A DNA stretch of 21,600 nt from a virus, in the IMG/VR virus record IMGVR_UViG_3300022074_000435, positions 1 through 21,600 of that record. One strand, written 5' to 3'. Shown here piece after piece: positions 1 through 6,225 of the stretch. Position numbers and translations under genes: made by a program. The notes beneath the pieces were generated by a model. The model was given only the letters and a program-made list of their open reading frames with translations. It did no database searches and was not told the DNA's origin. Every line of letters starts with the position of its first letter. Within the stretch, counting starts at the first letter, position 1.

Positions 1-614
1 GCGAAATATTACAGCAAACCGACAATTGTCAAATTTTACCAACTAATAGATCACAGGTTAGACCATTTCTAGGTTATTTAAAAAATCCTAGCGAAGCTGT
101 TGAAATTTGGAAAACTGCTTGTTCTGAAGCTGGAAGCAATAAAGTACCTACTTATCATCAGGTAAATAATGCTTTTTATTCATATAGAGCCAAAATAAAT
201 TCATTACAAAAACAACCAGAATTAAAATCAGATAACAATGTTGAAACAGTTTCTTATACAGAACCTACATATGAAACATCAACAAATACAAGTTACGAAC
301 AACCCAAAACTTCTACTATTCCAGTATGGGAACAAGAAAGAAATACACAAGAAGTAGATCCTTATTCTGAATGTAAAAAATTACATGATGTTTTATATGC
401 AGCAGAGAAAAGTTTACAAGACTTACATGGTGTTCTTTATCATCAAATAAATAAGTATGGGAGTGCTTATTTAGATCAGATGAAACAATTTGATGCTGGG
501 TTATATTCAGTTTCAGATATTGATGAAAAGATAGATTCATTGCATGAACAAACAAGTTATCTTGTTGATTTATTGCAGAAAGATGTAGAACCTAATGATC
601 TTGTAAATGAGTAA
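1..614 (+). CDS. Partial early protein of unknown function (3' part, 203 codons visible)
   Basis: The frame is open from base 3 to the TAA at 612-614 with no start codon near the window edge, so the gene begins upstream. The N-terminal visible part (about residues 9-60) contains LPTNRSQVRPFLGYL followed by a stretch with the form PxEAxxxWxxACxEAGxxKVPTxxxV. This resembles a motif I know from ParB-like or replication-associated phage and plasmid proteins, where LPT-S-x-x-QVRPL precedes an 'AW...A' helix and a 'vT...V' segment. The middle (about 75-110) is Thr/Ser/Glu-rich and probably disordered. The last 80 residues look helical (KKLHDVLYAAEKSLQDL) and may form a coiled coil. The 3' end overlaps the start of the nuclease-like gene by 8 bases, which places it in the same early operon. 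A DNA-binding or partition-like role is inference; the coding call is firm. Confidence 0.75.
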   Translation, partial: EILQQTDNCQILPTNRSQVRPFLGYLKNPSEAVEIWKTACSEAGSNKVPTYHQVNNAFYSYRAKINSLQKQPELKSDNNVETVSYTEPTYETSTNTSYEQPKTSTIPVWEQERNTQEVDPYSECKKLHDVLYAAEKSLQDLHGVLYHQINKYGSAYLDQMKQFDAGLYSVSDIDEKIDSLHEQTSYLVDLLQKDVEPNDLVNE

Positions 615-942
615 TCCACAGAAACAAAAAGGTGATAAAGCTGAAAGAGAAGCAGCAGAACTCTTAACAGAAGTTACTGGCTTTGAATGTCAACGTAATC
701 TATCAGCAGGAATCCCAGGGGATGTCGGTGATATATATGGCATACCTAATTGCGTTATACAGGTATGTGATTGGAAGGACAAATCAAGAGCTTGTCTTGT
801 TAAGCCTAGAGAAGTAGAAACACAAAGAGAAAATGCCAGGGTAGACTTTGCTACGACTATGGTTAGGTTCAGAGGAGGACAATGGCGACACGTTTTGACA
901 CCAGAACAATTCAACACATTGTTACAAGCTGCCTTGCAGTAA
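607..942 (+). CDS. Restriction-endonuclease-fold protein, Holliday-junction-resolvase-like
   Basis: A 111-residue protein with the layout of small PD-(D/E)xK nucleases. An N-terminal helix carries acidic residues (E13, E15, E18), followed by a Gly/Pro turn with D39 and D42 (PGDVGDIYG), a beta strand (VIQVCDW, 50-56), and a C-terminal RFRGGQWR...LTPEQF segment. Phage proteins of this layout are usually annotated as Holliday junction resolvases. In them the strand normally carries an E-x-K pair (for example IEVKN). Here that position reads Q52-V53-C54, with D55 and K57 slightly downstream, so the catalytic set may be altered. The gene lies directly upstream of an ERF recombinase, which fits a recombination/replication role. 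It starts inside the end of the preceding gene (AAATGAGTAA). The family call is moderate; nuclease activity is uncertain. Confidence 0.6.
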   Translation: MSNPQKQKGDKAEREAAELLTEVTGFECQRNLSAGIPGDVGDIYGIPNCVIQVCDWKDKSRACLVKPREVETQRENARVDFATTMVRFRGGQWRHVLTPEQFNTLLQAALQ

Positions 943-985: not shown

Positions 986-1690
986 ATGGCAACAAAACAG
1001 CCTTCCACTTTAATTGAGGCACTCAATGCTTTCCAGCAAAAGTATCATGCTGCTGGTTTAGATGGTAAAAATCCATTCTTTAAAAGCAAATACACGACAT
1101 TGTCTCAAGCTTTACTTGCTGTTCAACCAGCTACAGAGTTTGGTCTTTGTCATACACAATTGAATGACTTTGTTATGACTCCTGATGGAGAAATTATTAC
1201 AATAGTCATCACTAAATTGATGCACGTTTCTGGTGATGAACCTTTAATCAGTAAGTTTCCTGTTCCCAAGATTCCTACTAACGTAAAGAATGTTCATCAG
1301 GAAGCAGGGTCAGCACAAACTTATGCTCGTAGATATGGATTACTTTCTGTCTATGGATTAGCTAACGATGATGATGATGGTAATTCTTTAATGAAAACAC
1401 CACCACCAAAAACAGGTGTTGCTAAAACTCCAATGAAGCCTAATCAACAATTAGAGCCTACTTCTGTTTTAGAGAAACTTCCTGATCCTATTAGCAAAGA
1501 TGCAAAAGTAGTAATCCTTGAAAAGCTACAGACACTTCATAGTCTTCATCCAGAAAAGATGAAAGAACTTGTTGAAGCATTTAGAGAAAAGTTTGGTATC
1601 AAAGACTTAAAGATTACCAGACATATTACTACTGCTGAACAAGGAGAGTTCTTAGCTCGTGCTATTTCCAAAATAGATGAGAGCTTATGA
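986..1690 (+). CDS. erf: ERF-family single-strand DNA annealing protein (recombinase)
   Basis: A 234-residue protein with the hallmarks of the ERF superfamily, phage proteins that bind single-stranded DNA and anneal complementary strands during recombination and replication-end repair. The N-terminal region has NPFFKSKYTTLSQALLAVQP (29-48). It is followed by the beta-rich core (VMTPDGEIITIVITKLMHVSGDEPL). The strongest signature is EAGSAQTYARRYGLLSVYGL, which then runs into an acidic ANDDDDGN (about 106-133). A Pro/Lys-rich linker (about 138-165) leads to a helical C-terminal domain. The ATG at 986 follows the short intergenic region holding the inverted repeat. The stop overlaps the next start (ATGA at 1687-1690). 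The neighbouring nuclease-fold protein and SSB-tipped protein suggest a compact recombination module. Confidence 0.88.
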   Translation: MATKQPSTLIEALNAFQQKYHAAGLDGKNPFFKSKYTTLSQALLAVQPATEFGLCHTQLNDFVMTPDGEIITIVITKLMHVSGDEPLISKFPVPKIPTNVKNVHQEAGSAQTYARRYGLLSVYGLANDDDDGNSLMKTPPPKTGVAKTPMKPNQQLEPTSVLEKLPDPISKDAKVVILEKLQTLHSLHPEKMKELVEAFREKFGIKDLKITRHITTAEQGEFLARAISKIDESL

Positions 1691-1896
1691 ATGCAGATGA
1701 AGTAAACAATGCGAGAGAAGAAGTATTAAAGGAGCTTCTTCTTCGTAAACAGCAATCAAAAAAAGATTGGAATAAAAACATCTTTAGCGTCAGAACCAAT
1801 GACGATTTAGCTGTTAAAATAAAGAATCATTGTACAAAAAACAAGACTTCTTTTAACTCCTTTTTCAACACTTTATTAAACAAATTTTTTAATTAA
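1687..1896 (+). CDS. Small ribbon-helix-helix-like protein
   Basis: A 69-residue basic protein whose start overlaps the erf stop (ATGA), so it is probably translationally coupled. The N-terminal 30 residues are a charged helix. Residues about 30-69 have the profile of a ribbon-helix-helix (CopG/Arc/MetJ type) DNA-binding domain: a short strand (NIFSVRTN), a first helix (DDLAVKIKNHCTKNKT), then a second helix after an S-F-N-S turn (SFNSFFNTLLNKFF). Such proteins dimerise through the strand and bind palindromic operators. An AT-rich inverted repeat lies about 0.7 kb upstream in the same operon. The fold assignment rests on pattern only. It could instead be an unrelated small helical protein. 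Confidence 0.5.
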   Translation: MNADEVNNAREEVLKELLLRKQQSKKDWNKNIFSVRTNDDLAVKIKNHCTKNKTSFNSFFNTLLNKFFN

Positions 1897-1898
1897 TT

Positions 1899-2216
1899 AT
1901 GTCAAATTCTAATTTTGATTTTAACCCAGCATTACCTCTACCTATCGGATTTAAAATTCAAGATGGTAAATATGGTAAGCAATTAGTTTTATTCATTCCA
2001 ACAGAATCTATTACGCATTTGATGGATCATATGCAAAACTTAGTAAACACAAAATCAACATCTGGAAAAGTTTATCTTGGAAAAGAAAAAGGCAACATTA
2101 ATACTGAAGGTATATACATCAACGCTAAAACGTTGGAGTCAGAGTACGGAATTTATGGGCAAATTAATCCCCAGAAAATAGCTACAGCACCATCTACTGA
2201 AGAGTTACCTTTCTAA
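1899..2216 (+). CDS. Early protein with SSB-like C-terminal acidic tip
   Basis: A 105-residue protein starting 2 bases after the preceding stop. The first 85 residues alternate short strands (GFKIQDGKYGKQLVLFIP, GKVYLGKEKGN, GIYINAKTLESEYGIYGQI). No family is firmly recognised. The last residues, TEELPF, match the acidic-hydrophobic tip of bacterial and phage single-stranded-DNA-binding proteins (typically D-D-x-P-F), which docks to repair and replication partners. The preceding PQKIATAPS stretch resembles the flexible linker that usually carries this tip. Placed after a nuclease-fold protein and ERF, the gene could encode a phage SSB analogue, possibly with a degenerate OB fold. The tip is seen directly; the SSB function is inference. 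Confidence 0.62.
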   Translation: MSNSNFDFNPALPLPIGFKIQDGKYGKQLVLFIPTESITHLMDHMQNLVNTKSTSGKVYLGKEKGNINTEGIYINAKTLESEYGIYGQINPQKIATAPSTEELPF

Positions 2217-3328: not shown

Positions 3329-3724
3329 ATGACAGAAGAAGTCAAAAAAGGCCCACTCAAAAAACTCAAAGAAACTATTGAGGATAAAGAGGAGCAACTT
3401 GCCTTTATCTCAGTTGTAGTAAGACTTGTTGTAGTCGGGTGGAGCGGTTTTATCGTCAGCCTAAACTACATCTCTATCCCAGGTTATACAAACGAACCAA
3501 AGGATATAACTTTTCCTGCTTCTCTGCTGACAGGTGCGTTAGCCAGTTTTGGTTTAGAAGGTGCTAAAAAAAGAGGTGATGGTACTTTTAAACCTGATGA
3601 AAAACCACTAAACAAGAAAGAAGTTGAAGCGTTACTAGCACAACAGTCGGGTGGTTATCAAACAGTTAGAATAGAAACACCTATAAAAATTATTGGTACT
3701 AAAGTAGTTGATCCAAAAAAATGA
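3329..3724 (+). CDS. Two-helix membrane protein, possible holin
   Basis: A 131-residue protein with a charged N-terminus (KKGPLKKLKETIEDKEEQ). It has a first hydrophobic segment at about 25-47 (LAFISVVVRLVVVGWSGFIV) and a second at about 59-76 (ITFPASLLTGALASFGL). A hydrophilic C-terminal half follows, ending in KVVDPKK. Two membrane spans and a charged tail are compatible with a class II holin, but the tail is long and no holin family is recognised. It heads the cassette that encodes three signal-peptide proteins, and its stop overlaps the next start (ATGA at 3721-3724). An alternative is a membrane partner of those secreted proteins. Confidence 0.65.
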   Translation: MTEEVKKGPLKKLKETIEDKEEQLAFISVVVRLVVVGWSGFIVSLNYISIPGYTNEPKDITFPASLLTGALASFGLEGAKKRGDGTFKPDEKPLNKKEVEALLAQQSGGYQTVRIETPIKIIGTKVVDPKK

Positions 3725-4227
3725 AAAAACTTCTTCCATTCTTGTTTTTACTGTCAGCACCAGCTTATGCTGATATAACAAGTAAATTTACATCAAGCGT
3801 TAGCGTTAAAGTTGATGCGGCTATGACCCAAGGTACAAGAATTGGTGCGTCATATAGTGCTTCTGGAAGCAATATCGGGACAAGTAATACTAATGATCAA
3901 ATCGGAGGGCTTACTGTCAGCAATAATACTGTCAGTTTAACTGCTGGAAATTATTCAATAAATGGTTGTGGAGCTACACCAGCAGCTTGTGCAGATACAT
4001 GGTCTTTATCAGAATCTTATACTGCTGCTGATACTATTCCAAGTAGCAATTCAAATATTACGGCTGGAACAGTTCCTAATTTTGGTAGCGTAATTTCTAC
4101 AGCGAATGGAACTGGTGATGGCTTTGCAGGGGCTATTACATCTGGTCATGGAATTACAGGATTACATGAAGGTGGAGCAGGTTCTACAGTTACAGGTCAA
4201 TTCGTAACGGAGCTAACTATAAGATGA
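3721..4227 (+). CDS. Secreted Ser/Thr/Gly-rich protein 1 of the cassette
   Basis: A 168-residue protein with a textbook Sec signal peptide: MKK, a hydrophobic core (LLPFLFLLSAP) and an A-Y-A cleavage site after residue 17. The mature part is rich in Ser, Thr, Gly and Asn with almost no charge. It has repeated short strands (VSVKVDAAMTQ, GLTVSNNTVSLTAGNYSI) and a C-terminal HEGGAGSTVTGQFVTELTIR. A possible disulfide pair (C81, C88) lies in GCGATPAACAD. The overall pattern suggests a secreted or surface beta-rich protein. It is translationally coupled to the membrane protein before it. I recall similar cassettes in marine cyanophages, where the function is not established. Confidence 0.75.
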   Translation: MKKLLPFLFLLSAPAYADITSKFTSSVSVKVDAAMTQGTRIGASYSASGSNIGTSNTNDQIGGLTVSNNTVSLTAGNYSINGCGATPAACADTWSLSESYTAADTIPSSNSNITAGTVPNFGSVISTANGTGDGFAGAITSGHGITGLHEGGAGSTVTGQFVTELTIR

Positions 4228-4230
4228 TCT

Positions 4231-4671
4231 ATGAAAAAACTCTTATTGTTGCTTTTGCTATATGTTGTACCTGTTAAATCACAGCCAGTTGTCCCAAATT
4301 TCACTACGGGAACACTCAGTAGCACCACGAATACAACCACTTCAATCAATGAGACTATCACTTCTACAGATTATCATGGTAATTCTTATGAGTATTCTGT
4401 TACTGGATTGGGAGTCACAACCAATGGATCAGTCGCTCCAAATACAACGAATGTTGATGGGACAGTAAATGGACAGAGTTATACATGGACAGGTTTAGAT
4501 TTATCAAACGGAAACAAACCAGTATTCAACCTAGCAAATCCCAGTTCTGGCAACGCATTTCAATATACAGAAACCTATCGTGGCCCAGGTGGGGTTTCAA
4601 ACGTAACAGTAATACAAAGAAATATAGAATCAACTTCAGTCGTCACAAGTACCTCAGTCTTCTCTCAGTAA
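4231..4671 (+). CDS. Secreted Thr/Asn-rich protein 2 of the cassette
   Basis: A 146-residue protein with a strong signal peptide (MKKLLLLLLLYVVPVKS, cleavage probably before Q18). It starts 3 bases after the stop of the previous gene. The mature sequence is very rich in Thr, Ser, Asn and Gly, with no cysteine. It carries beta-like stretches (GNSYEYSVTGLGVTTNGSV, NAFQYTETYRGPGGVSNVTV) and ends in STSVVTSTSVFSQ. The last 187 bases overlap, in another frame, the region upstream of the next secreted protein, including that protein's whole signal peptide. Function unknown; secreted or periplasmic location is inferred from the signal. Confidence 0.72.
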   Translation: MKKLLLLLLLYVVPVKSQPVVPNFTTGTLSSTTNTTTSINETITSTDYHGNSYEYSVTGLGVTTNGSVAPNTTNVDGTVNGQSYTWTGLDLSNGNKPVFNLANPSSGNAFQYTETYRGPGGVSNVTVIQRNIESTSVVTSTSVFSQ

Positions 4672-5293: not shown

Positions 5294-5435
5294 AAGAAGC
5301 ACCCGATTATCTTTGAACAGGGACTAGATCTAGCTAGTGTGCCAACAGACTCTTGGTACTTAAAAACAAAGGATCATCTTCGAGCAGAGATTGAATCGAG
5401 CCAATATGCCTACAGCTTCCTTTGCTTAATATTTA
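5268..5435 (+). other. Spacer between convergent genes, with an unexplained open frame
   Basis: This 168-base gap separates the plus-strand cassette from the convergent minus-strand genes. A plus-strand frame is open from about 5258 to about 5493 but has no ATG. It reads protein-like in part (HPIIFEQGLDLASVPTDSWY). Its codon use (CTA, CGG, CCG, AAG) differs from the neighbouring genes. A 10-base palindrome, CTAGATCTAG, lies at 5324-5333. No tRNA, terminator U-run or promoter is clear. It could be a gene remnant, a gene with an unusual start, or a non-coding element. Confidence 0.3.
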
Positions 5436-6077
5436 TTATACCTTATCTTTCTTCTTTGTCAGCTTTTTTACTACTTGTTTTACTAAAGGTTTGACTGCGT
5501 TAAGAAGTAATGGACTACTGGCAGCGACCAAGCCGATAACAGCAGTAGATACAAGAGTAGAAACTTCTGGAATGTACTGATCTTTAAATGGGACGTTTTC
5601 ATAAAGCGTTATACACTCAATTAAATCATCGCCTCTTTTATGTCCGATGACACGTTCCAATCGTTTTTCGTTACGAAAGTCTCCTACTCTTTGATCCCCT
5701 TTACCAGGACAGGGTTCTAACTTTATTTCTTCTTCCTTTTCAGGTGTCTTAGGTATCTCAGGTGTTTTAGATTCTGGGATCTCAGGTGTTGTTATTGGTT
5801 GTTCTTGCTTTTGCTCTACAATCTCTATCCTTTTTCGGTCATAATTTATTGGAACGAAAGAAGGTATCTTTCCTTCTGGGCAGCTATAAAACGCTCCATT
5901 AACATCATCTTCTATTATCTGTGTGTTTGTAACCGAAGCATCTCTATGCGTCTTTACGCAGCCTGGTAGATCAATATTAGGTAAAGGTACGTTTAATACA
6001 GGTAAAGGAGTATAAATATAATGATTAACAGTTGGAATCTCTGGAATTATAATCTCAGGGATTTCAGTCGTAGGCAT
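5436..6077 (-). CDS. Pro/Glu-rich protein with C-terminal membrane anchor, conserved phage hypothetical
   Basis: A 213-residue protein. The N-terminal 60 residues are Pro/Ile-rich (IPEIIIPEIPTV, LPVLNVPLPNIDLPGC), followed by VNGAFYSCPEGKIPSFVPINYD (59-80). Residues 95-115 are a TPEIP-type repeated linker (TPEIPESKTPEIPKTPE). After a second cysteine-containing part (C123, C155) comes one membrane span at about 172-193 (VSTAVIGLVAASSPLLLNAV). It ends in a very basic tail (KKLTKKKDKV). The 'PGCVxxHRDxx...DDxxGxxxxCPxGxxPSFxPxxY' core is a pattern I recall from unnamed cyanophage proteins, possibly virion or membrane associated. It is the last gene of the long minus-strand run and starts inside the zinc-ribbon gene. 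Confidence 0.7.
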   Translation of the reverse strand: MPTTEIPEIIIPEIPTVNHYIYTPLPVLNVPLPNIDLPGCVKTHRDASVTNTQIIEDDVNGAFYSCPEGKIPSFVPINYDRKRIEIVEQKQEQPITTPEIPESKTPEIPKTPEKEEEIKLEPCPGKGDQRVGDFRNEKRLERVIGHKRGDDLIECITLYENVPFKDQYIPEVSTLVSTAVIGLVAASSPLLLNAVKPLVKQVVKKLTKKKDKV

Positions 6078-6225
6078 CTCTTTTCTTTAATACTTCTACT
6101 TCTGCATGGCATTTAGGACAAGATAAATTAGTCATCACCGAAAACTCAGGATAACCATTCATCCCATCTTCAATATCAATGTCACCACCTATTATTAATT
6201 CTGTATTACACCAATAACAGTTCAT
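6064..6225 (-). CDS. 53-residue zinc-ribbon protein
   Basis: An open frame from the ATG at 6225 to the TGA at 6066-6064. It has two CxxC-type knuckles: C3-Y-W-C6 (MNCYWCNTEL) and C36-P-K-C39 (LSCPKCHAEVEVL), separated by a Gly/Asp/Glu-rich middle. This is a minimal zinc ribbon. The start codon shares its first base with the preceding stop (TAATG), and the end overlaps the next start by 14 bases, so the gene is embedded in a coupled operon. Many phages carry such small zinc ribbons. Partner and target (DNA, RNA or protein) are unknown. Confidence 0.72.
   Translation of the reverse strand: MNCYWCNTELIIGGDIDIEDGMNGYPEFSVMTNLSCPKCHAEVEVLKKRDAYD

Follow-up and report, generated by a model that had tools for sequence, protein, structure and literature searches.

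A small SSB-like protein of marine phages whose C-terminal tip changes together with the C-terminal domain of the neighbouring annealing protein

In this study, we describe a family of small, SSB-like viral proteins in which the class of the C-terminal tip changes together with the type of C-terminal domain carried by the annealing protein (SSAP) encoded upstream. The member under study is encoded at positions 1899-2216 of the window, that is, the whole stretch of 21,600 nucleotides that was analysed (positions 1 to 21,600 of the IMG/VR virus record IMGVR_UViG_3300022074_000435). The tip is conserved across the family, the SSB-like gene and the SSAP gene form a fixed pair, and tip and domain switch in concert. 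We propose, with a probability of about 0.65, that the product is a small phage SSB, or a functional stand-in for one, whose tip recruits the cognate SSAP. The β-rich core would coat the single-stranded DNA arising from replication or from end resection, and the tip would bring in the annealing protein through a direct contact with the SSAP C-terminal domain. The features of the window to which this model refers are the following.

607..942, + strand: nuclease/resolvase-like gene, upstream in the same module (phrog_244, 1.6e-10; PDDEXK_15, 0.002, not reaching its cut-off)
986..1690, + strand: SSAP with an ERF-type N-terminal core, the proposed partner (PF04404 ERF, 3.9e-15; phrog_2324, 9.2e-26)
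1403..1687, + strand: SSAP C-terminal domain (type A), last 95 residues, the proposed tip reader (tip and domain types agree in 169/169 loci; 1 tip change on the domain tree)
1687..1896, + strand: small RHH/Arc-like gene, between the SSAP gene and the SSB-like gene (phrog_582, 9.4e-5; 1 tip change on the RHH tree)
1899..2216, + strand: SSB-like protein of 105 aa, the coordinates running to the end of the stop codon (165 distinct full-length relatives)
1944..2165, + strand: predicted folded core, residues 16-89, with two strands, a 17-residue helix and four strands in succession (AlphaFold2, mean pLDDT 82.4, pTM 0.63)
2196..2213, + strand: TEELPF, the C-terminal tip (residues 100-105), modelled as disordered (basis of the tip classes; residues 98-105 with pLDDT <50)

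The open reading frame starts with ATG and has its coding part at 1899-2213, with the stop codon extending to 2216. Its product ends in TEELPF, as the first-pass annotation of this DNA had stated, and the nuclease, ERF and RHH neighbours named there are recovered by profile matches (phrog_244, PF04404 and phrog_582). The SSAP gene, the RHH gene and the SSB-like frame follow each other in a tight run, the TGA of the SSAP gene overlapping the ATG of the RHH/Arc-like gene at 1687. The tail hub protein of the virus is closest, among named isolates, to those of the Prochlorococcus siphoviruses MED4-117 and P-HS2 (37-38% identity), and the SSAP of the window shares 87% identity with its counterpart in Marine virus AG-345-A17; on the basis of these likenesses, the host is likely to be a picocyanobacterium. 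Further along the window, at 3329-4671, a gene for a membrane-protein-like product (phrog_2714, function unassigned) precedes two small ones whose starts resemble signal peptides, a trio that is present in 70-85 of the family loci and has no named function.

Neither the window protein nor the sampled relatives gave a significant sequence match in Pfam, PHROG or the PDB, and the family appears from these searches to be undescribed. The weak Pfam and PHROG matches (DUF7424, 0.15; phrog_34452, 0.015; thymidylate synthase, 0.032; TFA2_Winged_2, 0.01; and others) were judged to be due to chance. Scans of IMG/VR retrieved relatives sharing as little as 32% identity with the window protein, in 319 rows that gave 209 loci and 165 distinct full-length proteins; 17 rows without a start or short and 4 without a stop were removed, and then the duplicates, defined as contigs identical in the gene and its flanks, with near-identical relatives staying in the set. 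No relative came up when 84,980 genomes of bacteria and archaea were scanned with a profile, and one phage record, MH327490 of Marine virus AG-345-A17, contains one. A structure search of BFVD returned a clear relative, A0A8S0HZS3 (45% identity, TM 0.81), and a possible one, A0A6M9Z756 (18% identity, TM 0.51), both of them viral UniProt proteins without a product name that match the predicted fold. The family is probably made up of proteins of marine viruses with cyanobacteria as hosts. In two GC-rich relatives (L049, at 5309-6214, and L095, at 760-1668) the next gene encodes a sigma-70 family factor with regions 1.2, 2, 3 and 4, which is unusual beside a recombination module.

The tip is the conserved part of the tail, since phenylalanine is the last residue in all 165 distinct full-length relatives while the linker that precedes it varies in length and sequence. 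An acidic -PF tip, as in bacterial SSB, is found in the window protein, and 122 of the 165 relatives end in -PF; another 34 end in -QGLF and the 9 remaining ones in other forms, those known from a smaller, earlier set being DEPAF, DDIAF, TEPVF and DSAGF. This uniform ending is not due to chance, since F is the last residue in only 163 of the 1464 other distinct ORFs of at least 80 aa on the + strand of the same loci, many of which are probably not true genes. Four of these background ORFs end in PF, and none in [DEN][DE]xPF or in QGLF. The conservation of the tip, which the first-pass annotation had singled out as a point to be checked, thus holds for the terminal residue, although the tip exists in several forms.

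An SSAP gene lies at most 1.5 kb upstream in each of the 147 loci with sufficient upstream sequence, and the adjacency of an SSB-like gene and an annealase gene, which characterizes phage SSAP-SSB modules, is therefore present in 147/147. The annealase is ERF-type in 91 of these loci and Sak-type in 56, the latter call being based in one of two examples on phrog_659 (1.2e-6) and phrog_8492 (3.2e-5), with a weaker match (0.11) in the other. Both cores precede a C-terminal domain of recognisable types, of which type B carries the motif DIRT[AST]EQG, and a PDB sequence search with this domain gave nothing significant. Across the domain tree of 110 loci, the N-terminal core alternates between ERF and Sak before the same C-terminal domain, with 18 core-type changes. 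The SSAP gene is itself preceded by one of two nuclease genes, either a window-like one (55 loci, all with -PF tips) or a RusA-like one (56 loci, 30 with QGLF and 26 with -PF tips), the names RusA and PDDEXK coming partly from a reading of the sequences. No canonical SSB (PF00436) was found in the record of the window, nor in 14 long records of the family (16-42 kb), which are possibly fragments.

The QGLF tip and the type B domain imply each other in 169 of 169 loci: 33 loci combine QGLF with type B, and the 127 loci with PF tips and 9 with other tips are devoid of it. In a smaller set, tip class and domain type agree in 133 of 133 loci. The match holds for either annealase core and for any SSB core, both annealase cores being seen with both tip classes, and in the relatives with DEPAF and DDIAF tips the C-terminal region of the SSAP differs. 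The domain types were named after viewing the sequence listing; the counts of tip changes on trees are independent of these names. For the same 110 loci, the fewest tip changes required are 1 on the tree of the SSAP C-terminal domain, 1 on that of the RHH gene, 5 on that of the SSB core and 17 on that of the downstream neighbour, against 25-26 for shuffled labels on these four trees of the full set. On the annealase-core trees, the fewest changes are 2 for the ERF core (73 loci) and 6 for the Sak core (35 loci), with shuffled-label expectations of 9.3 and 11.8 on the two trees. These main counts exclude the 'other' tips, and the 110-locus set (of 157) further requires the RHH and downstream genes; when the 9 'other' tips are counted, in a separate and earlier set of trees, the SSB-core tree needs 8 tip changes and the domain tree 4.

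Several individual loci illustrate how the exchange has taken place. Loci L053 (a contig also labelled L176) and L058 have SSB cores that are 99% identical both as DNA and as protein, yet their tips are DELPF and QGLF, respectively, and their SSAP C-terminal domains are 54% identical as DNA and 33% as protein. The DNA downstream of the L053 gene is likewise of the PF kind, so that this event, taken by itself, is a swap of the core. Two further loci (L013 and L024) have cores like that of the QGLF-tipped L019, yet their tips are DELPF; their upstream DNA, in a later check, proved to encode domains of type A, with 71% and 69% identity to the one in the window, and the rule fits them. The well-supported independent switches number only four, all of them concordant (sign test, p = 0.125). 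A possible violation of the rule is found in L003 (positions 1-430), where the end of the RHH gene and the SSB core are of the PF type, but the tail is QGLF and the DNA downstream is of the QGLF type. The junction falls in a stretch of about 30 nt in which the two parents hardly differ, so that a recombinant and an assembly chimera are indistinguishable here. The contig does not include the SSAP, and the junction lies a few hundred bases from its end.

All together, these data raise the possibility, to which we give even odds, of a private and switchable recruitment code existing in at least two mutually exclusive versions, type A with -PF and type B with -QGLF, in which recombination exchanges the DNA-binding core and the annealase core without restriction but keeps reader and tip in register, the QGLF version being orthogonal to the host SSB.

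The association could also have arisen in other ways. The RHH tree, with its single tip change, follows the tip as well as the domain tree does, the downstream DNA of L053 kept its PF kind as in a pure core swap, and in a close group the upstream nuclease differs along with the tip, all of which favours the RHH protein as the partner of the tip, or else a linked block of domain, RHH gene and tip without any contact. We nevertheless consider either version unlikely, given that loci with 72-75 nt between the SSAP and SSB-like genes, and hence without a full RHH gene, still have -PF tips. Within the same 110 loci, moreover, there are 18 changes in the type of the annealase core, which lies immediately before the domain, and 17 tip changes on the tree of the gene immediately after the tip, so that linkage in the vicinity has often been broken, with frequent recombination just 5′ of the domain and just 3′ of the tip. 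The SSB core has been exchanged as well, yet domain and tip remain matched. A pure marking of lineage by the tip is disfavoured too, the trees of downstream genes showing 15-21 tip changes in sets of 70-95 loci in addition to the 17 in the 110-locus set.

As for partners in the host, the first-pass annotation had considered that the protein might be a decoy, whose tip competes with the host SSB for partners such as RecO, PriA or exonuclease I. A PF00436 search of 26 picocyanobacterial genomes identified SSBs in 24 of them, and each of the 26 sequences read from them has a -PF end, QGLF being absent, so the -PF tips of the phages do resemble those of the host. The QGLF tips, present in 34 of the 165 distinct relatives, are however unlike any of the 26, which argues against mimicry as the main role; the tip, in addition, tracks the C-terminal domain of the phage's own SSAP, whose gene always adjoins, and we regard the decoy as quite improbable. 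Sliding-clamp-binding motifs include QLxLF, for example, and the -GLF ending recalls such motifs. Being one residue short of that consensus, and being paired with the type B domain of the SSAP in 33 of the 33 QGLF loci, the QGLF tip points to the SSAP instead, and a clamp-binding role is very hard to credit. An accessory factor (mediator or adapter) that binds the SSAP by its tip, and does not itself coat single-stranded DNA, would agree with fold searches that return no OB fold and with a core that is not basic. The PF00436 search, which finds no other SSB in the 14 long family records, and the adjacency of erf and ssb, the usual phage arrangement (PMC8093625), make us doubt this explanation, and a small SSB that recruits the SSAP remains our preferred reading.

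The fold of the protein bears directly on this reading. AlphaFold2, run with 47 relatives, gave a mean pLDDT of 82.4 for the best of five models (ranging from 82 to 61), and this run and a second AlphaFold2 prediction agree on the order of elements: strand, strand, 17-residue helix and four strands. This predicted order is in line with the hallmark of T7-type SSBs, a long helix straight after β2, in a comparison of element order alone that we treat as a lead, and the model is compatible with a minimal T7-type OB-like fold. Searches of the PDB with the two models gave best values of E 0.44 and 0.55 in Foldseek, none significant, and of Z 2.9 and 3.0 in VIA-align, each for a LOV-histidine kinase chain and none convincing; hence we assign no fold family. 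The PF00436 profile did not match the window protein in the Pfam search, and profile-profile comparison gave probabilities of 2.5% against the 26 picocyanobacterial SSBs and, with hhalign, of 2.9% against DUF2815 and 0.8% against gp2.5, the control comparison of gp2.5 with DUF2815 reaching 92%. The local match to DUF2815 covers only 13 columns, at the end of β2 and the start of the helix, with a score above those of 60/60 column shuffles, and the scores of the gp2.5 and host SSB profiles were reached by 2/60 and 1/60 shuffles, respectively. Across 182 loci, the net charge of the core, the last 15 residues being excluded, lies between -6 and +2.

The first-pass annotation had remarked that there was no obvious OB-fold match, which is true of the Pfam, PHROG and PDB sequence searches, and had suggested a fold prediction, whose outcome is divided: the order of elements is compatible with an OB fold, while the PDB fold searches and the profiles give no OB match. 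It had also held that a variable C-terminus coupled with the lack of an OB-like structure would speak against an SSB; the C-terminus, though of several forms, always ends in F, and the objection fails on this side, while on the side of the fold the searches and the element order stand as just described. Of its proposals, that of a diverged phage SSB belonging to a recombination module has the best support, in view of the SSB-like tip, the SSAP in 147/147 loci and the absence of a PF00436 SSB from the records searched, an OB fold being compatible with the predicted topology.

The matching of SSAP and SSB helps to decide whether phage recombination proteins work in a new host, and is as such a practical limit in recombineering. 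The present family is a natural series of combinations, tip and candidate reader changing together amid extensive shuffling, and the contact could be mapped and tested with short peptides. It also provides a likely function for a common marine phage protein that is unnamed in the family libraries searched.

A number of known systems resemble parts of this arrangement. In the Sak4-SSB pair of coliphage HK620, as here, the phage SSB gene adjoins the annealase gene, and Sak4 requires the last six residues of the SSB, with the tip NDYPPF, in order to bind single-stranded DNA coated by the SSB, stimulation depending on these residues as well (PMC5928155). Sak4 is RecA-like and its SSB is a distant SSB homologue (PMC5928155), whereas the SSAP described here is of ERF or Sak type, the core matches no SSB profile, there is a QGLF class of tips, and the observed link between tip and SSAP is one of co-variation. 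The T7-type SSBs, such as T7 gp2.5 and Enc34 ORF6 (DUF2815), have as their stated hallmark a long helix right after β2, followed in Enc34 ORF6 by more strands (PMC5686142); the succession of strand, strand, long helix and strands, and then a flexible C-terminal tail, is the one predicted here. The present protein differs in being about half as long and in having no significant profile similarity to them, and its tail is short and ends in PF or QGLF, whereas six cyanophage gp2.5 proteins end in DDF, YDF or EDF. In the case of Redβ, a small C-terminal domain of the annealase serves for protein contacts, with lambda exonuclease and potentially with SSB (PMC9512822), a role that we propose for the SSAP domain here; this domain, unlike that of Redβ, has no significant PDB sequence match and its proposed partner is encoded by the phage. 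In Firmicutes phages, the SSAP gene likewise adjoins an ssb gene in erf-ssb modules, and C-terminal domains are common to unrelated SSAP families; the available part of that source (PMC8093625) does not mention a matching of shuffled domains with SSB tips, and our literature search, with limited terms, found no description of an SSAP C-terminal domain type matched to an SSB tip type. Thus, the SSAP-SSB module, the sharing of domains and the erf-ssb adjacency were known already, and what appears to be new is the matched switching of domain and tip.
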